A stretch of DNA of 64,000 bases, taken from assembly GCF_900233005.1 (NCBI RefSeq), contig NZ_LT960611.1, positions 2,542,001-2,606,000 on the forward strand, read 5' to 3'. This stretch comes from Vibrio tapetis subsp. tapetis. GTDB lineage: Bacteria; Pseudomonadota; Gammaproteobacteria; Enterobacterales; Vibrionaceae. Below, one piece after another: positions 6,124-24,801 of the stretch. Both the position numbers and the translations under genes were made by a program. The number at the start of each line of letters is the position of its first letter. Position 1 is the stretch's first letter. The notes beneath the pieces are model-generated. The model had not been told where the DNA came from. It searched no databases and saw nothing but the letters and a program-made list of their open reading frames with translations.

Positions 6124-7365
6124 ATGGCTCGTTCGGTAAAGCCTTTGACTCATACTGAAATCAGTAAAGCTAAATCCAAAGACAAAGAATACTCACTGTC
6201 TGATGGTGGTGGACTAATGTTAAGCATTCGCCCTAGCGGAAATAAAACTTGGCTATTAAAGTACTACCGCCCATTCACAAAAAAACGCACAAACCTTACC
6301 TTTGGCTCGTACCCTGAAATAAGCCTTGCTCAAGCAAGAGCAATGAGACTTGAGGCACAAACTCTACTAGCTCAAAACATCGACCCTAAAGAACAAAGAG
6401 ATCAAGAGCTAGTCCGTGGAAAAAAAGAAACCGAAAACACACTCCAAGTAGTCGCATTGCAATGGTTTGACGTAAAGAAAACCCAAGTGACCGAAAACTA
6501 CGCCACCGATATATGGCGTTCTTTCGAATTGCACCTGTTCCCCTCTCTAGGTAGTTACCCTGTTAGCCAACTCAAAGCCACACAAGCAATCCAAACCCTA
6601 CGACCGATAGCAGCAAAAGGCTCACTGGAAACAGTTAAACGCCTATGCCAGCGTATTAACGAAGTCATGACCTTCTCCGTTAACATCGGTTTGATCGACA
6701 ATAATCCACTAGCGAAAATTCACTCGGCTTTTCAGGCTCCCACCAAAAAGCACATGCCAACATTGCCACCAAATGAAATTCCAGAGTTAATGCAAAAACT
6801 AAGTCGGGCAAGCATCAAACTAACCACACGCTGCTTAATTGAATGGCAATTGCACACTATGGTTCGCCCTGCGGAAGCTGCTGGGGCTAAATGGGATGAG
6901 TTAGATTTTGAACGTGGGCTCTGGATAATTCCGGAGTACCGAATGAAGAAACGCAAAGAACACTCGGTTCCTTTAACTGATCAGACACTCGCATTGCTTG
7001 AAATAATGAAACCAATAAGCGCTCATCGAGAGTTTATCTTTCCTGCTGATCGTGACCCGAAAAAACATACCAATGAGCAAACGGCTAACGCAGCTTTAAA
7101 GCGAATGGGCTTTTCTGGACGACTTGTTTCTCACGGTCTACGGGCTCTCGCCAGTACTACACTGAATGAGCAAGGCTTCGACTCTGACGTGATTGAAGCG
7201 GCACTGTCCCACGTGAACAGCGATGAAGTAAGAAGAGCGTATAACCGAGCTGATTACCTTGAACGTCGTCGTTCACTCATGAGCTGGTGGAGCGAACATA
7301 TTGAAGCCGCTAGTACAGGTAGCGTGAGCCTTGGGCAAAAGCACTTGAAAATAATAGGTAGTTAA
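6124..7365 (+). CDS. Tyrosine recombinase/integrase, P4 type
   Basis: 413-residue integrase of the P4-like family. The N-terminal DUF4102 domain (LSDGGGLMLSIRPSGNKTWLL and FGSYPEISLAQAR, residues 24-75) is followed by a SAM-like core-binding domain and the catalytic domain with Arg248 (MVRPAEAAG), His337-Arg340 (HGLR), His363 (LSHVNSDEVR) and the nucleophile Tyr373 (AYNRADYLE). All expected catalytic residues are present. Located 196 bp after ssrA and pointing inward, it presumably catalysed integration at the tmRNA 3' end. The next gene starts 3 bp after its stop codon. Confidence 0.96.
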   Translation: MARSVKPLTHTEISKAKSKDKEYSLSDGGGLMLSIRPSGNKTWLLKYYRPFTKKRTNLTFGSYPEISLAQARAMRLEAQTLLAQNIDPKEQRDQELVRGKKETENTLQVVALQWFDVKKTQVTENYATDIWRSFELHLFPSLGSYPVSQLKATQAIQTLRPIAAKGSLETVKRLCQRINEVMTFSVNIGLIDNNPLAKIHSAFQAPTKKHMPTLPPNEIPELMQKLSRASIKLTTRCLIEWQLHTMVRPAEAAGAKWDELDFERGLWIIPEYRMKKRKEHSVPLTDQTLALLEIMKPISAHREFIFPADRDPKKHTNEQTANAALKRMGFSGRLVSHGLRALASTTLNEQGFDSDVIEAALSHVNSDEVRRAYNRADYLERRRSLMSWWSEHIEAASTGSVSLGQKHLKIIGS

Positions 7366-10491: not shown

Positions 10492-11226
10492 TCAAACCAC
10501 CAGCCCATGCCCGTTAACCTTAAGCCACTCTTTGTGCTCTTGGTAATCGGGCATCACACGTTCGACTTCTTTCCAAAATTGCGGGGAATGATCATGGTGA
10601 ACCAAATGGCACAGTTCATGGATAACCACGTAGTCCACCACTCGGTTTGGTGCCATCACAATCACCCAGTTGAACTCTAAGTCACCATATGGCGTGCAAC
10701 TGCCCCAGCGGCTTTTAAACTCTTTAATGCGCACGACGCCCGTTTCTACCCCTACAAGGTTTTCATAGCGGCGAACCTTATCGCGGATTTTCTTTTCAGC
10801 GTTGCGCTTATACCAGTTCATCAACGAACGGCGAATGTAGTGGCTTTGGTTACTTGGGTCTGGCACACAGACGGTAATACGTCCGTTCACAAGCTTAGTT
10901 GGGCTCAGGTCGCCTTGTAGCACTTTTAGTCGGTAGTTACGGCCAAGATAAGGAAAGGCCTCACCAGAAACGTACTCTTTGTCGCTGCGGGGAGTCGCTT
11001 CCAGCTGAATGGCTAACTTTTCAATGATCCACTGGTGTTTGTCTGCCACCAGCTTTTCTATTTTCTCTAACTCTAGCGCTTTAGGCACCACCACTATCAC
11101 CAGCCCATCTTCAACCTTGATGGTGGCGGATTTACGGCGAGAGGTTCGTGCTACCTCAACATCATAGCCATTGGCTTTGATTCGCTCTGGTGCTTTGCTG
11201 GTGGCTTTCATTACTGGTTTACTCAT
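10492..11226 (-). CDS. YgjP-like zinc metalloprotease accompanying the type I RM locus
   Basis: A 244-residue protein of the YgjP/DUF45 metallopeptidase family. The zinc motif HELCHLVHHDHS is near residue 208, preceded by the conserved RWGSCTPYGDLEFNW segment, and the C-terminal part has PQFWKEVERVMPDY. Such genes often travel with type I restriction operons, and here it follows hsdR by 20 bp on the same strand. Its role in restriction is not established; a regulatory proteolysis role is only a suggestion. Confidence 0.88.
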   Translation of the reverse strand: MSKPVMKATSKAPERIKANGYDVEVARTSRRKSATIKVEDGLVIVVVPKALELEKIEKLVADKHQWIIEKLAIQLEATPRSDKEYVSGEAFPYLGRNYRLKVLQGDLSPTKLVNGRITVCVPDPSNQSHYIRRSLMNWYKRNAEKKIRDKVRRYENLVGVETGVVRIKEFKSRWGSCTPYGDLEFNWVIVMAPNRVVDYVVIHELCHLVHHDHSPQFWKEVERVMPDYQEHKEWLKVNGHGLVV

Positions 11227-15997: not shown

Positions 15998-17214
15998 TAG
16001 CTGTCTACCTTGACTCGTTTTTTGCCTGTAAGGAGATCTTGCATAAGGGCTTTCTTCAAAGACTTCTTACTGTCTAATACTTTTAACTTCAACGTAATGT
16101 TCTCATCTAGCATCTCTAGTATTCTTACTACTTGATTTTGCTCATCGAAAGGCGGTAAAGCTAAAATTATCGACATTACATCTGAACCAGGAAGGTTTGC
16201 CACCGTTCCTTTTCGAACAAAAGAATCGACTTGTGATAGCGCTTCATCTGTTTGCATAAAATAGTTGATGTACTTGGAGTTCAGTCCTTTCTTTGGGGTC
16301 AATTTAATCGCATATGCACTGGCTATATAAGGAATAGACTGAGACTCAAAAACAGCAGTGGCTCCACAATCAGCTGTTGTGATCATTACCAAGTCACCAT
16401 GATTTAAAGCGTTTTGAGTAACAAGCTTACTATCTAGCTTTGCAACAGGAACCTGCGAATATTTAATAACCCCATTACTAGATAGGTCTGTTCCCCTAAT
16501 AGTTTTTACATTCCCAAGTTCATCGTAGTCTTTGGAACTAAAGCGAGGACCATACTTATAGGTATGAAAAATATCTTTAAATTTCACAACCTCCCACTCC
16601 TTCGGAATCCTACCCACTGGCGAGTCTTTAAACTCGGCATGCGGCTTACCATCCACACCGACACCACGAGTAAGTAACTCTTGCATCATGCCTGTTTTCA
16701 GGTCTTTGAGCTTGTCGATTTGCGCCTGTGTTTTTTCAAGCACCTCATCGACTGAGGTGAGAATTTTGGCGATTTTCTTTTGTTCTGGGAGTGGTGGGAG
16801 TAACAGTCGAATTTGGTTTAACGCCCCTTGCGTTATCTTAGGTTGAGCTGAACCACTAGCAATAATGCTATAGTCAATTGACTCTAATGCTTCACACAAA
16901 TACCCAATATCAACACCCTCTTTTGGCTGTAATACATGTGCGTGATTATTAACCCAAAACTTCCCATTAACTCTGAATGCAAGAGGGAGATTACGTGACA
17001 GTACATTTTCACCATCTTCTCCAAGTAGAATATATTCACCATCAAAAATATAATCATCTACATAATCAATAACGCTAGATGCACCGTAATAACGATAGGC
17101 ACCCTGTCGATTCGCTCTATCTGTAGATTTCAAAGGTATACGTTTTCCATCTAAGTTATTTGCGGCCTCAGATACTAATTTTATACACCATCCTTCAGGA
17201 ACCAAGTTACTCAT
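15997..17214 (-). CDS. hsdS: Type I restriction-modification specificity subunit S
   Basis: DNA recognition subunit, 405 residues. It has the two-fold arrangement of the family: target recognition domain 1 (about 1-145), the central conserved helix LPPLPEQKKIAKILTSVDEVL with TGMMQELLTRG, a second TRD starting at GRIPKEWEVVKFKD, and a C-terminal repeat PFDEQNQVVRILEMLDE ending in KKALMQDLLTGKKRV. Its ATG overlaps the hsdM frame end by 8 bp, indicating coupling. The recognition sequence cannot be deduced from the protein. Confidence 0.94.
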   Translation of the reverse strand: MSNLVPEGWCIKLVSEAANNLDGKRIPLKSTDRANRQGAYRYYGASSVIDYVDDYIFDGEYILLGEDGENVLSRNLPLAFRVNGKFWVNNHAHVLQPKEGVDIGYLCEALESIDYSIIASGSAQPKITQGALNQIRLLLPPLPEQKKIAKILTSVDEVLEKTQAQIDKLKDLKTGMMQELLTRGVGVDGKPHAEFKDSPVGRIPKEWEVVKFKDIFHTYKYGPRFSSKDYDELGNVKTIRGTDLSSNGVIKYSQVPVAKLDSKLVTQNALNHGDLVMITTADCGATAVFESQSIPYIASAYAIKLTPKKGLNSKYINYFMQTDEALSQVDSFVRKGTVANLPGSDVMSIILALPPFDEQNQVVRILEMLDENITLKLKVLDSKKSLKKALMQDLLTGKKRVKVDS

Positions 17215-18938
17215 AACCCAGCTCCTTCAAGTACCCTTGCATCACCTGCTCGGCATCCGTTACTTGTTCATCAAGTTCATGCAACGACACTTGGTACTTG
17301 TCCCACCAGCGTTCTAGTTGAGTGATTACCTTAGCTTCTGCATCCACAGCTACTTCACGAATCTGCTCTTTGCTCTCAATGCTTGGCTTGAATACGTAGT
17401 AGTCGTTGTCTTTTTTATCGAATACAAGTGATACATCAAAGTCTTGAATGATCTCTTCTTGAATGTATTCGTCTTCCACTTCACGCACTGGCACACCACC
17501 ATGCAGAATCGCACGTACATCAAAGATTTCTGCTGGTGGCGAGGTATCGGCATAACGGCGAATATTAAGGTTAAAATCGTTCTCGGCAATTTCTGAAAAG
17601 TTCACCACTTTTGCGTAGCGTTTAATATCGCATTTGCTTTCAAATGAATGGCTTTCGAAGGTTTCGACAATCTTGGTGATGTCTTGCTCGCGCAGTTTGT
17701 TCTGATTTTTGCCCTCTTCAAACTCAAGCTCTGAGTTGATGAACAGCACTTTGCCTTTACGAGCTGCAACTTTGTTCTTGTTGATGATAAGCAGGAATGC
17801 CTGTGCCATAGAACAAACCCGATGGCAGGCCAACCACTGCTTCAAGCAAATCATCTTCTAAGATGCCTTGGCGAATCGCTTTTTCACTAGAACCACGGAA
17901 TAGCACACCATGTGGCATAACTACACCCACCATACCTTCAGCGTTAGTGCTGGCGATCATGTGTTGGACAAAGGCCAAATCACCTGCATCTTTTGGTGGT
18001 GTACCGTAAGGGAAACGACCAAAACCATCGCTGTCACACTCATCTTTACCCCACTTCTTCAGGGAGAAAGGCGGGTTAGCGATGACTCGATCAAAGGTCA
18101 TTAGCTCACCGCTTTGCGTGTGCTGAGGGTCACGTAGGGTGTCACCCTTGCGAATATCGGCACTTTGCACGCCATGTAAGAACATGTTCATCTTACAAAT
18201 TGCCCACGTATTCAGGTTCATTTCCTGCCCGTACAGCGATAAGTTAGCGGCGTTTTCTTTGTTTGCTGTAAGGTGATTACGGGTTTGTACCAACATACCG
18301 CCCGAACCTGTTGTCGGATCGTAAATACGCATTCCCGCATGTGGTTTTAGTAATGCCACCAGCAATTGCACCACTTCACTTGGGGTATAGAATTCACCGC
18401 CCTTTTTGCCTGCACTGTCGGCAAACATTTTGATCAGGTATTCGTAAGCCGTACCCAGCATATCTGGGCGCTCGAAGTCTTCATTACGTAAGCGGTGCTG
18501 GCTAAAGTGAGACAATAAATCACGCAGCTTGGCATCTGAGAGTTTGTTTTTGATGTTGAAGTCTATCGTCACCAATACGCCTTCTAGCGCAGGGTTAAAC
18601 TCTTCAATCGCTTCTGTTGCTTTGTTTAGGCTTTCGCCAATGTTGTGCTTCAAATCTTTAAGTGCAGACCAACGAGCAATTTCTGGCATGAAGAAGGTAT
18701 CGTCGTACTCATCTTCATCGTCTGCCAGCTCAGTCGCTTGCTCTTCGGTTTTCCCTTTGTCTCGGTAGTACTGAATGACCTTTTCTTGCTCTTCTTCAAA
18801 GGCATCAGACATGCGCTTTAAGAACATCATGCCAAAGATATAGTCTTTAAATTCAGAGGCATCCATATTGCCACGAAGGATGTCAGCCGTTTCCCACAGG
18901 AAAGACTCAAGCGTTTGCAGAGAGAGTTTGTTGGTCAT
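17207..18938 (-). pseudogene. hsdM: Type I DNA methyltransferase subunit M, frameshifted
   Basis: N6-adenine methyltransferase subunit. The first frame (from the ATG at 18938) holds the N-terminal domain, [13 protein letters not shown], the SAM motif DPTTGSGGM and the catalytic NPPF ([13 protein letters not shown]). It leaves frame near 17790-17800, after [10 protein letters not shown], and stops at 17757. Homology resumes in the second frame at [20 protein letters not shown] and continues to 17207 (HsdM C-terminal region). The break equals a 2-base loss (or 1-base gain) modulo 3. Unless it is a sequencing error, the methylase, and therefore the whole RM complex, is probably inactive. Confidence 0.88.
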
Positions 18939-19183: not shown

Positions 19184-19789
19184 ATGACTGTGAAAGTCTC
19201 CCATATCACTCACATCAACAACCTAAACGGGATACTAGCCGCAGATTGTTTATGGTCGGACTCCAAACGTATTGAACTTAACTTAACAAATAAGAATATT
19301 GGTTATAACCACATTAAACAGCGACGATTACAGCACCGTGTTGATGCTGCCGCTGGTGGTATGATTGGTGAGTATGTTCCATTTAACTTCTGCCCCCGAT
19401 CTGTGATGCTTTATGTCATTCATCAAGGTCATGATGATTTCCACGATGGGCAAGAACAGATTGTGCATTTAATCAGTGATACACAAACAATAATGGTCGC
19501 TAACCCAAACTGCTTTTTTACTGACATACATGCCGACTTGGCGTTTGCTGAGCAAATCGATGATTTTTCACGATTAAATGAACTCGATTTCAAGAAAATC
19601 CATGCTAAATACTGGCAGCAATTTAAAGAAGAAAAGCAAGCTGAATTTCTAGCATACAACTCAGTACCTTGGAATTGTATTCGACAAGTCGGAGTAAAAA
19701 CGCCAGAATTAGCAGAGAAGGTAAAACTGATTATCGCCAATTCAAAACATCAACCTGAAATTCTGGTTAAGCCAGAATGGTATTATTAG
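19184..19789 (+). CDS. darT: DarT toxin, ssDNA ADP-ribosyltransferase
   Basis: Toxin of the DarTG system, which ADP-ribosylates thymidine (DarT2 type) or guanosine (DarT1 type) on single-stranded DNA and blocks replication. From the ATG at 19184 (AAGGA 9 nt upstream) it is 201 residues. The N-terminal HITHINNLNGILAADCLWSD, the EYVPFNFCPRSVMLYVI NAD-binding region and the catalytic Glu154 in KQAEFLAYNSVPW match DarT. Upstream in-frame codons from 19067 lack homology. The darG antitoxin starts 14 bp after its stop. The divergent hsd operon shares the upstream region. Confidence 0.92.
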   Translation: MTVKVSHITHINNLNGILAADCLWSDSKRIELNLTNKNIGYNHIKQRRLQHRVDAAAGGMIGEYVPFNFCPRSVMLYVIHQGHDDFHDGQEQIVHLISDTQTIMVANPNCFFTDIHADLAFAEQIDDFSRLNELDFKKIHAKYWQQFKEEKQAEFLAYNSVPWNCIRQVGVKTPELAEKVKLIIANSKHQPEILVKPEWYY

Positions 19790-19803: not shown

Positions 19804-20871
19804 ATGATTTCATACGTTGAAGGAAACATCCTGCACGATCAAGCCGATGCCATTATTAACACCGTTAATACGGTTGGAGTTATGGGAAAAGGCCTTGCTT
19901 TGCAGTTTAAAAAAGCCTTTCCTGATAATTTCAAAGCGTACAAATCAGCTTGTGATAGTAAAAAACTCACAACCGGAAAAATGCTGTCTGTTGCTACTCA
20001 ATCAATCAATGCACCTTTCTACATCATCAACTTTCCAACTAAAGCTCATTGGAAAGGAAAATCTAAAATTGAATACATCCAAGATGGTTTAGGTGCTCTC
20101 AAAAAAGAAGTTCGAAGATTAGAGCTAACCTCTGTAGCGATACCAGCTCTAGGTAGTGGGCTCGGTGGTTTGCCTTGGTCTGAAGTAGAGCGTGAAATTC
20201 AGGCGGCATTATCCGATATGCCAGATGTTGAGTGGCGTATTTATCCGCCTCAAAATGCACCTAAAGCCGAACAAATGATTAACCGAACACCTAAACCTAG
20301 GATGACAATTGGTCGAGCTGCGGTTATCGGGTTAATTAATGAATACCTCACAACTGGATTACACTACAAACTGTCTTTGCTTGAAGTCCAAAAGCTCGTC
20401 TATTTCTTGACGGCGGCAGGAGAAAAATTAAATAAAGTCCACTTCCAAAAACATCACTATGGCCCTTATGCTGATGTGCTACGCCATGTATTAGAAAAAA
20501 TGGAAGGGCATTTTATTTCAGGCTACGCTGATGGTATAAACAAGCCTGACACGTCTATTCAACTAAAAGGTGGCGCAATCAATGATGCTCAATCATTCTT
20601 AGCCTCTCACCCTGACACTAAGGAAAACTTTGACCAAGTGACCAAGCTGGTCGATGGTTTTGAGTCACCTTACGGTATGGAGTTACTCTCTACAGTTCAT
20701 TGGGTTGTGACACAAGAATGCCCTCACAAGGAAGTGGAACTAGAAGATGTAATCAAAAAAGTTCATGGGTGGAGTGAACGTAAAGCGCAAATGAAGCCAG
20801 CCCATATCAAAGCTGCTCTAGCACGGTTACAAGAACAGCAATGGTTGGATAGAACGCCTACGACTTACTAA
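19804..20871 (+). CDS. darG: DarG antitoxin, macro-domain DNA ADP-ribosylglycohydrolase
   Basis: Antitoxin to DarT that removes ADP-ribose from DNA and also binds the toxin. The N-terminal macro domain (about residues 1-155) shows EGNILHDQADAIINTVNTVG, GKGLALQFKK and the IPALGSGLGGLPW loop. The C-terminal domain (about 170-355) matches the DarG toxin-binding domain, including LSLLEVQKLVYFLTAAGE and HHYGPYADVLRHVLEKMEGHF. At 355 residues it has the usual DarG size. Operon with darT; a bidirectional terminator follows. Confidence 0.92.
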   Translation: MISYVEGNILHDQADAIINTVNTVGVMGKGLALQFKKAFPDNFKAYKSACDSKKLTTGKMLSVATQSINAPFYIINFPTKAHWKGKSKIEYIQDGLGALKKEVRRLELTSVAIPALGSGLGGLPWSEVEREIQAALSDMPDVEWRIYPPQNAPKAEQMINRTPKPRMTIGRAAVIGLINEYLTTGLHYKLSLLEVQKLVYFLTAAGEKLNKVHFQKHHYGPYADVLRHVLEKMEGHFISGYADGINKPDTSIQLKGGAINDAQSFLASHPDTKENFDQVTKLVDGFESPYGMELLSTVHWVVTQECPHKEVELEDVIKKVHGWSERKAQMKPAHIKAALARLQEQQWLDRTPTTY

Positions 20872-20898: not shown

Positions 20899-20922
20899 AA
20901 AGGCTTCCAATGGGAAGCCTTT
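20899..20922. terminator. Bidirectional terminator between darG and the convergent darT-like gene
   Basis: Perfect 10-bp stem (AAAGGCTTCC / GGAAGCCTTT) with a 4-nt loop, placed between two convergent genes. The flanking T/A runs are short, so efficiency is uncertain. Confidence 0.7.
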
Positions 20923-20934
20923 CTCGAGAATTAA

Positions 20935-21510
20935 CTATCGATTTAAAAACATCCCTTGATTGACCTTTACATCCAGAGCAATTCTTTTATCCCTCAACAG
21001 CATCTCGACGTTTTTCTTAACCTGTTCATTTGGAACAAAAATCTTAAAAAAATCATTAACAGCTACCACGTTTGGCGATAAACATTCGGCCATGCACACA
21101 CTTTTTGACTCATCATCGTTATAATCTCTACGATTCATTGCTTGCCAATTGATACGATTAAAACCTTCCTCATAATCCAGAACTTCAACCCCTTGGTTTG
21201 CTAGAGGATGCCGTGGAATAATACTCCAATTTCTAGCCTGAGCTAGCGTTCTTCTAACTGCAACCAATACAAAATCAGTATCAGGATTATCAGTTTGAAC
21301 TGCCCCATCAAATGGGTTTCGAGCAAAAAAGTGGAAGGGAACATATCGCTCCAAATTATATGCTTGACGCCCATCCAGAATTTCATGATCTGCAACATCA
21401 TCAAAATCTTCTAACTCAACTCTTGGTAATAATCCATTATCTAGAATGGATGCTACATTTTCTAAACTAGTAATATGATAAAGCAGTTTTTGGTCTCTAA
21501 TATCAGCCAT
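20935..21510 (-). CDS. DarT-like ADP-ribosyltransferase without its own antitoxin gene
   Basis: A 191-residue protein resembling the DarT/DUF4433 ADP-ribosyltransferase group. It has an N-terminal LLYHITSLENVASILDNGLLPR (compare the HIT..N...IL signature of DarT), the central RYVPFHFFARNPFDGAV (NAD-site region) and a probable catalytic Glu in VCMAECLSPNVV. It is clearly diverged from the darT at 19184. ATG at 21510 with AAGGA 6 nt upstream. Convergent with darTG, with no macro-domain gene of its own adjacent, so it is either neutralised in trans by DarG, non-toxic, or an orphan. Enzymatic activity is inference. Confidence 0.8.
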   Translation of the reverse strand: MADIRDQKLLYHITSLENVASILDNGLLPRVELEDFDDVADHEILDGRQAYNLERYVPFHFFARNPFDGAVQTDNPDTDFVLVAVRRTLAQARNWSIIPRHPLANQGVEVLDYEEGFNRINWQAMNRRDYNDDESKSVCMAECLSPNVVAVNDFFKIFVPNEQVKKNVEMLLRDKRIALDVKVNQGMFLNR

Positions 21511-22292: not shown

Positions 22293-22541
22293 ATGATATA
22301 TAGTCCAAAGCAACTCGCTGACATGATGCTCCTAATAAGGCAAAAGAACGGCTGGACTCAATCAGAGTTGGCCAAAAGGGTAGGCATAAAGCAAGCAACT
22401 ATCTCAAACTTCGAAAATAGTCCTGATAAGACAACACTTTCGACTTTCTTTAAACTTATTCAGGCAATGGAGCTGACACTGAGCATCCAGGAAAAAGCAC
22501 AAGTAAGTTCACAAGATAGCCAAGATGATGAGAACTGGTAA
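22293..22541 (+). CDS. hipB: HipB antitoxin, HTH repressor
   Basis: An 82-residue Xre-type repressor and antitoxin of HipA. Like E. coli HipB it begins MIYSPKQLADMMLLIRQ, has the HTH NGWTQSELAKRVGIKQATIS, continues NFENSPDKTTLSTFFKLIQAMEL and ends in a short flexible tail with a C-terminal Trp (DDENW). AGGA lies 10 nt before the ATG. The stop overlaps the hipA start by one base (TAATG). The four upstream operators indicate autoregulation together with HipA. Confidence 0.94.
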   Translation: MIYSPKQLADMMLLIRQKNGWTQSELAKRVGIKQATISNFENSPDKTTLSTFFKLIQAMELTLSIQEKAQVSSQDSQDDENW

Positions 22542-23842
22542 TGCAAAAACTAAACGCATACATGAACGGAGAACTCGTAGGGACTCTCAATAAACAGAAG
22601 AATGGTGCTCATACTTTTCAGTATGATAAGACCTGGGTAACCAGTGACAAGTCCCGACCACTATCATTGTCTCTAAAATTACAACTTCCACCTATAACTT
22701 CAGACTCAGTCATCAACTACTTCGACAACCTTTTACCTGATAGCCCAAAGGTGAGAGACAGGATCGTAAATCGTTATAAAGCTTCATCTAAGCAGCCATT
22801 CGATCTTCTCAAAGAAGTTGGTAAAGATAGCGTCGGAGCTATTGCATTAATTTCTCCTGAACAACCTTACAAAAATGAATCACTCAATTATCAAGTCTTA
22901 GATGATAAAAAGTTGGATGCAGTGCTTTCAGCCTACAAATCCGATATCCCCCTCGGAATGGTTGAAGAAGAAGAAGATTTCAGAATATCAGTGGCTGGTG
23001 TTCAAGAAAAAACGGCACTTCTATTTCTTGATGAACAGTGGTGTATCCCCAAAGGTAATACTCCAACAACTCATATCATCAAACTACCGATTGGCGAAAT
23101 ACAACAAGCAAACGCAACATTAGATCTTAAAGACAGTGTTGAAAACGAGTACCTTTGCATCGAGTTAGCTAAGGCACTAGGGTTTGCAGTTCCCAATGTC
23201 CACATGCTCAAAACTGATAACCTGAAAGCTTTAGCTGTAGAGCGATTCGATAGACGCTGGACTAAAGATAAAGCTAACTTACTCCGTCTACCTCAAGAAG
23301 ACATGTGCCAAGTATTTGGTATGCCATCATCAATCAAGTACGAACCTCAAGGTGGCCCCGGTATTTCGGAAATCATGAAGCTACTCATGGGTTCAAGTAA
23401 TGCACTGAAAGATCAGTATAACTTCATGAAGTTTCAAGTTTTTCAGTGGATTATAGGGGCAACTGATGGGCATGCTAAGAACTATTCTATTTATATTGAG
23501 AAGGGAGGGAGTTATCGTTTAACTCCATTCTACGATATTTTATCAGCATATCCGCTTCTGGGTGGTCGAGGCCTGAATATTAGAAAAATCAAGCTCGCAA
23601 TGGGACTCAAAGCGACTAGAGGGAAAAAGTATGAAATTAACAAAATATTACCTCGCCACTTTCTGGATACAGCTAAAGCAGTAAACTTCAGCCAAGATAA
23701 GATGCAAAAGATATTGAATGAGCTGAAAGGTGAATTCCCCGAAGCAATCTTACAAGTAAAAGCAAAGCTACCTGAAGATTTCCCTGAGAAGATTTCAGAC
23801 TCAATTTTTGAAAATGCCACAAAGATACTTTCGAAGATTTAA
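22541..23842 (+). CDS. hipA: HipA toxin, Ser/Thr kinase
   Basis: Persister-associated kinase; in E. coli it phosphorylates glutamyl-tRNA synthetase and halts translation. The 433-residue protein aligns closely with E. coli HipA. Autophosphorylated Ser150 (DFRISVAGVQEKTALL), catalytic Asp309 (IGATDGHAKN) and metal-binding Asp332 (FYDILSAYP) are all at the same numbers. The N-terminal subdomain contains the TSDSVINYFDNLLPDSP signature. It appears intact and functional. It sits on an accessory segment bounded by ssrA-end repeats, so it was probably acquired horizontally. Confidence 0.96.
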   Translation: MQKLNAYMNGELVGTLNKQKNGAHTFQYDKTWVTSDKSRPLSLSLKLQLPPITSDSVINYFDNLLPDSPKVRDRIVNRYKASSKQPFDLLKEVGKDSVGAIALISPEQPYKNESLNYQVLDDKKLDAVLSAYKSDIPLGMVEEEEDFRISVAGVQEKTALLFLDEQWCIPKGNTPTTHIIKLPIGEIQQANATLDLKDSVENEYLCIELAKALGFAVPNVHMLKTDNLKALAVERFDRRWTKDKANLLRLPQEDMCQVFGMPSSIKYEPQGGPGISEIMKLLMGSSNALKDQYNFMKFQVFQWIIGATDGHAKNYSIYIEKGGSYRLTPFYDILSAYPLLGGRGLNIRKIKLAMGLKATRGKKYEINKILPRHFLDTAKAVNFSQDKMQKILNELKGEFPEAILQVKAKLPEDFPEKISDSIFENATKILSKI

Positions 23843-23985: not shown

Positions 23986-24801
23986 TTATTGAGATAAGGT
24001 CTCTTTGATCTCATCAGAGCTAAACCCGTGAGAATACAGGTACGCGTAGGCTTTGCTTTTGTCTTTCGAGCTCTTTAAATCAAAGCGTTTTTTCTCAAGC
24101 CTTAGTTGGCAGTTAGCGTAAAAATCGATGCTGCCATCGAGCTCCAGTTTATCCATTTCTTCATCAAATTTTGTCATATCAATCAGTTTTTGCTGTAACT
24201 CGCGCTTTATCACTGACTTGCCTTTGAGCTTACGTGCCAGTTTTTCTATCTCTTTTACTAAATCGGCTTTATCAGCTTTGATTTGCATTTTTGATGACAG
24301 CGTTGAAGCGACTGGGTGTGCTTTTATGGCTTCTCGTACATCCGACGATTTAAAACCATACTTGATTAGGGTGGCTTGTAGCTTGTCACTTGAAAACGAC
24401 TCTAGCCTCATACTTGAAAGGCGCTCGTTAATCATGGCTATTTCGCACACTTCATCACGGTCAACGATATGTTGAATCGCTTCCTGAATGGTGGACTCAT
24501 CCACACCTTTGAGCTTGAGTTGAGTCAAAATAAACTGCCTGCCCTTTTGCGCGTTAAACGCCATTTCGACAAAATTAATCGCAAATTTTTTATCTGACTT
24601 TAAATAACCTCGTTCAATCAGATCATTAAGAACGGTATCTATCCACTCTTGATTATCCGTTTTCGCCACCAGCTTTTTTCTTAGCTCATCGATGGTTCTG
24701 TCTTTGGCTTCTAAGTGATAAAACGCACTGCCATAAACGTTATCGATTGTTTTTGCTTGTTTAATAGGGCGTTGAAGCTGTAGAATTTCTCGATTTTTCA
24801 C
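23986..24801 (-). CDS. RecX-like protein, extended
   Basis: A 271-residue protein whose first half resembles RecX, the modulator of RecA filaments: YHLEAKDRTIDELRKKLVAK, LIERGYLKSDKKFAINFVE and ILTQLKLKGVDESTIQEAI are RecX three-helix repeats. The second half (about 165-271) adds a further, weaker repeat-like helical region, so the protein is much longer than classical RecX (about 150-165). It is not next to recA. Family is inferred from pattern; a role with RecA is unproven. Confidence 0.7.
   Translation of the reverse strand: MKNREILQLQRPIKQAKTIDNVYGSAFYHLEAKDRTIDELRKKLVAKTDNQEWIDTVLNDLIERGYLKSDKKFAINFVEMAFNAQKGRQFILTQLKLKGVDESTIQEAIQHIVDRDEVCEIAMINERLSSMRLESFSSDKLQATLIKYGFKSSDVREAIKAHPVASTLSSKMQIKADKADLVKEIEKLARKLKGKSVIKRELQQKLIDMTKFDEEMDKLELDGSIDFYANCQLRLEKKRFDLKSSKDKSKAYAYLYSHGFSSDEIKETLSQ

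Follow-up and report, generated by a model that had tools for sequence, protein, structure and literature searches.

DarTx, a diverged DarT-type ADP-ribosyltransferase of 191 residues, is encoded on the minus strand at positions 20935–21510 of the window, the 64,000-nucleotide stretch of Vibrio tapetis subsp. tapetis DNA analysed here, beside a DarT2–DarG toxin–antitoxin pair. From comparative sequence analysis, we conclude that DarTx probably represents a distinct and widespread DarT subfamily, predicted to ADP-ribosylate thymidine in single-stranded DNA and to be held in check by a DarG that would serve two toxins. This reading is based on membership in the DarT family, a predicted fold, invariant catalytic positions and near-universal linkage to DarG, as well as on the linkage of DarTx to DarT2–DarG pairs of more than one lineage.

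The darTx gene and its family

The open reading frame is real, running from an ATG start to a TAG stop with AAGGA upstream, and its translation contains all three motifs that an earlier note had quoted for it. On the opposite strand (plus) lie the genes for a DarT2-type toxin of 201 residues (19184–19789), with H-N-E at the positions of the H-Y-E triad, and for DarG (19804–20871), a macrodomain antitoxin of 355 residues in which the catalytic K80 is present and whose residues 190–331 match DarG as solved in complex with DarT. The stops of darG and darTx are separated by 63 nucleotides, in keeping with the tail-to-tail arrangement described earlier. Between these convergent stop codons, a hairpin with no assigned strand (20899–20922; 10 base pairs, −15.2 kcal/mol, z −3.3, equally good in 1 of 200 shuffles) is a possible shared terminator; it has no long T run, and a terminator scan made no call there. 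A promoter scan gave 7 against 10.0 in shuffles, no excess.

DarTx passes the Pfam DarT profile (PF14487; E 2.3e-23, 83.4 bits against a gathering cut-off of 22.5), matches the single DarT model of PADLOC (E 9.4e-40) and has 477 homologues at E ≤ 0.001 among 561 candidates, bearing out its DarT-like character. It fails the NCBIfam toxin_DarT equivalog (NF048013), scoring 61.6 bits against a cut-off of 150, and a PHROGs search returned only weak families of unknown function. The ART fold of solved DarTs is present in the predicted model. The profile search and structure prediction that the earlier note had proposed therefore place DarTx in the DarT family, and the Pfam match and predicted fold rule out a non-ART family. 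Divergence from the neighboring DarT2 is strong, as had been claimed: BLASTP finds at best 17 of 67 identities (E 0.026), and profile–profile comparison of the DarTx and DarT2 groups gives 99.3% probability at 18% identity. In a quick DarT tree, with SH-aLRT support only and long-branch warnings, DarTx forms one clade (SH-aLRT 99, branch length 2.97) that does not group with DarT2; most DarT2 sequences and Thermus DarT lie elsewhere in the tree. Thermosipho africanus DarT and two canonical sequences (L124 and L127) lie beside this clade on long branches.

Catalytic positions and predicted substrate

Profile–profile alignment to DarT2 and alignment to a solved Thermus DarT were used to establish equivalent positions. 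Five residues of DarTx, H12, R48, H60, H101 and E142, are identical in all 81 distinct intact sequences and align with the triad His, R51, Y71, H119 and E160 of DarT2, respectively. The catalytic Arg (R51) and Glu (E160) of DarT2, whose roles have been described together with that of H119 in the accessible text of one study (PMC11543638), thus have invariant counterparts in R48 and E142. The H-Y-E triad becomes H-H-E, with H12 and E142 kept and the Tyr replaced by H60 in 81/81 sequences, and the position of DarT2 M78 is occupied by Phe (F67). NAD handling by DarTx may differ because of these two replacements. H-Y-E is not a strict mark of the family, however, because DarT1 has Ser in place of the Tyr and yet is active (PMC11543638).

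The prediction of a thymidine target leans on H101, whose counterpart H119 makes contact with thymine in Thermus DarT2 (PMC11543638), and this invariant His of DarTx also occupies the position of DarT1 N104. D54, which is needed by the guanine-specific DarT1 (PMC11543638), has no conserved counterpart in DarTx, where position 50 varies and is Ala in 33 of 81 sequences. Judging by the alignment, a His at the H119 position cannot be taken as a strict sign of thymine specificity, nor does this position by itself determine the base, because Asn is found there in 10 of 79 distinct DarT2-type sequences. DarTx could instead mark another substrate, be it guanine, RNA or protein. The latitude at the H119 position, the long separate branch (2.97), and the placement of H60 and F67 at positions that serve the nicotinamide and the intermediate in DarT1 and DarT2 would all suit such a change of target. 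We regard it as improbable, given that the partners of DarTx are macrodomain rather than NADAR proteins, that H101 sits at the thymine-contacting position with no equivalent of D54, and that DarG did not remove guanine-linked ADP-ribose in the experiments described in the accessible text (PMC11543638).

The DarT2 of tandem loci also departs from the triad, with Arg at the His position (R-Y-E) in all 57 distinct sequences; an Arg occurs in the triad of the R-S-E class of ARTs too (PMC9967889). The idea that this departure is tied to a DarTx partner was dropped, and we treat R-Y-E as a trait of the tandem DarT2 clade, because a wider sample contained R-Y-E in tandem-type DarT2 without DarTx. At L123, L152, L154 and L156, whose genomes contain only one DarT match, tandem-type DarT2–DarG pairs stand without DarTx, a point against the shared-antitoxin reading.

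Linkage to DarG, descent and gene loss

The survey of homologues for co-occurrence with darTG, which had also been proposed, covered 98 loci: the window, 80 from 84,980 species genomes (the best 80 of 85 confirmed) and 17 viral contigs. Two conserved peptide patterns served to locate these loci; the resulting set over-represents Pseudomonas and includes several near-copies among the viral loci. Those from species genomes are mostly from Pseudomonadota, with others from Bacillota, Bacteroidota and one cyanobacterium (Argonema). Profile searches in all six frames place DarG near DarTx in 96/98 loci, a count preferred to the 95/98 of a gene caller because simple picking of open reading frames missed overlapped genes. 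In 63 of the 98, DarTx is accompanied by DarG and another DarT, and in 33 it is the only DarT beside DarG. The two remaining loci are contig ends: L093 has DarTx and a DarT where the contig stops, and in L058 the contig opens with DarTx and the following 4.3 kb contain no DarG. With DarG so regularly at hand, a single antitoxin likely restrains both predicted DNA-modifying toxins. In the window's genome, this DarG is the only Macro match and there is no NADAR match (an E. coli control was positive), so that DarTx has no macrodomain partner of its own in the sense of sharing the neighboring DarG.

The order is darTx–darT2–darG in 59 of the 63 two-toxin loci, convergent as in the window in three (the window, V. 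tapetis and Psychromonas) and darT2–darG–darTx in one (Kistimonas). Among 54 measured two-toxin loci, the darTx stop overlaps the start of darT2 by 4 nucleotides in 29 and by 1 nucleotide in 10. Four genomes beyond the 98 loci also have DarG beside DarTx, three with all three genes (G089, G567 and G879) and one (G572) with DarTx and a convergent DarG. By DNA comparison, G706 is a copy of L068 and G940 a copy of L059; G495 is the V. tapetis record of L003, identical (100%) over 16,567 bases. These arrangements bear on the idea that DarTx is an independent selfish or defense gene, brought near DarG by chance clustering in a defense hotspot and controlled by some other antitoxin, an RNA or an unrelated protein. 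Defense genes do cluster, HipBA and a type I restriction system share the island of the window with DarTx, and DarTx there lies on its own strand, presumably with its own promoter. Nevertheless, the presence of DarG in 96/98 loci, the overlapping or abutting stops and starts of darTx and darT2, and a genome with DarTx and DarG only (G572) make independence unlikely.

Two adjacent DarTs are rare in a sample of 369 Gammaproteobacteria, in which 25 genomes have DarT and two have adjacent DarTs (the window genome and G089). DarTx occurs in 5 of the 26 genomes with DarT among 398 Pseudomonadota, and in 4 of 227 Vibrio genomes (at least 54% identity over nearly the whole length), with weaker matches only in 6 more. 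A near-identical copy of darTx from L085 is present in 10 of 5,426 E. coli genomes; in the one copy inspected, darTx and a macrodomain gene lie between the replication and portal genes of a P2-like prophage. At the DNA level, darTx of Phytobacter gave no E. coli match that would indicate the three-gene operon. DarTx matched the 17 viral contigs, several of them nearly identical, and a search with the window DarT2 gave no relative among viruses. A plasmid or lytic-phage home was rejected, as there were only four plasmid records (three at 40% and one at 24% identity) and one phage record. A gene cluster lies upstream of darTx in 16 loci (for example, L037 6894–7814), within three genes in 13 of them, and its one tested member is an Mrr-type restriction endonuclease.

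The DarT2 partners of DarTx come from more than one lineage: a tandem clade, a Vibrio–Psychromonas clade that joins 10 canonical DarT2 sequences (99), Kistimonas and one long-branch viral sequence. Across the DarT tree there are five changes of label, at least four of which are forced by well-supported branches. The catalytic K80 is present in all 111 DarG sequences. In the DarG tree, rooted at its midpoint, 32 of the 34 DarGs from DarTx-only loci group together. A 99/88 split separates them from the DarGs of the two-toxin loci in the tree, on whose side 10 of the 12 DarGs from DarT2-only loci also lie; the other two of these (L126 and L127, on long branches) fall on the DarTx-only side. DarTx thus looks to have its own DarG lineage in two-gene modules, and the DarG of two-toxin loci looks as if it came with DarT2. 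As a partner of DarT2 by descent, this DarG need not bind DarTx. The two DarTx-only exceptions are L065 (long branch) and L132, the locus of G572, a Vibrio, where DarTx is tail-to-tail with a DarG that groups with that of the window (100/99, long branch); the G572 genome has no DarT match other than DarTx. At L132 (508–8770), the DarTx–DarG genes stand beside Tn7-like genes (TniB and TnsD/TniQ) and a gene for an HD-domain protein.

Intact copies of DarTx are under purifying selection according to codon comparisons, with a median dN/dS of 0.114 (33 pairs) in two-toxin loci, where DarT2 has 0.087 (280 pairs) and DarG 0.054 (70 pairs), and of 0.255 (35 pairs) in two-gene loci, where DarG has 0.094 (6 pairs). 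In-frame stops, frameshifts or truncation break DarTx in 7 of 66 two-toxin loci (L014, L024, L042, L064, L068, L072 and L082), so it is expendable there; DarT2 is broken in 2 of 66 (L024 and L060) and DarG in 0 of 65, with one more cut by the locus end, and DarTx is intact in 34/34 two-gene loci. These breakage counts leave aside two false DarTx hits (L117 and L104) and the duplicates L134 (of L003), L138 (G706, of L068) and L137/L161 (G940, of L059), of which L134 was kept in the DarT tree, the DarG tree and the dN/dS sets. Fisher tests of DarTx breakage give 0.013 versus DarG, 0.16 versus DarT2 and 0.09 versus two-gene loci; kin or draft sequences make all of these tests rough, and only the contrast with DarG counts, as a suggestive one. 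The pattern is compatible with, though no proof of, loss of this toxin being tolerated while another DarT remains, with the antitoxin kept. Expendability, like H-H-E and the Phe at the M78 position, might also be expected if DarTx were not a toxin but helped DarT2 or DarG with weak or no catalytic activity of its own, for example as a regulator or a decoy for phage anti-DarT proteins. We doubt this role for DarTx, because its catalytic Arg, His and Glu positions are invariant in 81/81 sequences, it is the sole DarT beside DarG in 33/98 loci, it is under purifying selection, and DarT1 is active with Ser for Tyr (PMC11543638).

Proposed mechanism, known systems and island setting

In the mechanism that we favor, with DarTx a thymidine-directed toxin under a shared antitoxin, the macrodomain of DarG would reverse the DNA mark of both toxins, and its C-terminal domain would perhaps bind both. 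Infection would upset the balance of toxins and antitoxin, and the toxins would then block replication of phage and host DNA. Two toxins could be covered by one eraser directed at the product, provided that both form the same linkage, and adding a toxin that differs in motif or surface would widen DNA coverage and hinder the escape of phages carrying DarT2-specific inhibitors or mimics of DarG. There are precedents for several of these elements in the published accounts available to us. EPEC DarT marks TTT/TCT and Thermus DarT marks TNTC; the EPEC DarG has two modes of action, removal of the mark and sequestration of DarT (PMC7003065). SCO6735, a macrodomain hydrolase that is not a DarG, can save E. 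coli cells from DarT (PMC9411070). Protection against DarT1 is also given by non-cognate NADARs, and the authors draw a parallel to earlier results with DarTG2 (PMC11543638). Finally, the AdfB protein of phage ICP1 resembles the C terminus of DarG and binds DarT (PMC11481870). The overall interpretation of the earlier note is partly supported.

More speculatively, DarTx could constitute a third class of DNA ADP-ribosyltransferase, with H-H-E and a target motif of its own, and darTx–darT2–darG an immune module with two warheads, a possibility suggested by sequence comparison that we hold only tentatively. One macrodomain eraser would then hold two toxins of different clade and specificity, and a phage that blocks or avoids one DarT, as with AdfB of ICP1, would still be struck by the other.

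DarTG2 (DarT2 with a macrodomain DarG, as in Thermus and EPEC) resembles the DarTx loci in having a macrodomain DarG beside the toxin, whereas DarTx is a separate clade with H-H-E, lies below the NCBIfam equivalog cut-off and in 63/98 loci is accompanied by another DarT next to that DarG. The nearest solved relative by sequence profile, T. africanus DarTG (7omu; E 1.8e-13), has a macrodomain partner too, but as one chain with the toxin (the DarTx profile matches 26–206, DarG 227–370); its DarT has Tyr at the H60 position and, where DarTx has H101, a Gly with a neighboring Asn in the alignment, and is a long branch outside the DarTx clade. DarTG1 (DarT1 with NADAR, E. coli C7) differs in that the window genome has no NADAR and DarTx has no D54 counterpart and a His at the N104 position. 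The DarTx–DarG modules of P2-like E. coli prophages belong to the same subfamily (286 bits with the DarTx profile) and have an adjacent macrodomain gene, with no DarT2 in the stretch examined in the one E. coli genome inspected; the DarGs of their viral near-copies (L083–L091) are in a different lineage from that of the window.

In the literature searched, which largely excluded subscription papers, DarTG is described as one toxin plus one antitoxin, DarTG1 and DarTG2 both being one-toxin systems, and no DarT–DarT–DarG system or H-H-E class of DarT is named among the papers listed. If the shared-antitoxin reading is true, the three-gene form would show that an eraser antitoxin, unlike a purely binding one, can cover several toxins at once, and it predicts cross-neutralization, a different target motif for each toxin and a module that withstands the anti-DarT proteins of phages. 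H-H-E, or darTx itself, would also be a clean marker for defense annotation, useful because the window copy falls below the NCBIfam equivalog cut-off and matches the one DarT model of PADLOC.

The island that carries these genes is flanked by a phage-type integrase gene (6124–7365) next to the tmRNA gene and, at the other side, by an mgtE-like gene; an att repeat of the tmRNA end was not found at the far side of the island within the window (at most 3 mismatches in 25 bases or 1 in 12). Its type I restriction genes include an hsdM (17207–18938, minus strand) made up of two overlapping open reading frames; these lie in separate frames, and each covers a portion of the methylase profile. L134, a same-site relative, has a single HsdM of 577 residues, and the window system may be inactive or the hsdM sequence in error. 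A HipB–HipA pair (22293–23842, plus strand) adjoins darTx; in L134 the HipB reading frame is kept, and there is no HipA open reading frame of at least 100 residues. Near the island end, a RecX-like protein of 271 residues with three RecX domains (23986–24801, minus strand) is encoded, with a transposase gene and an mgtE-like gene as neighbors. Beside hsdR lies a YgjP-like metallopeptidase gene (10492–11226, minus strand), of a family found beside hsdR in several darTx loci (a cluster of 10 loci), which brings to mind the metallopeptidase gene described for the EPEC island in the accessible text (PMC12255303).
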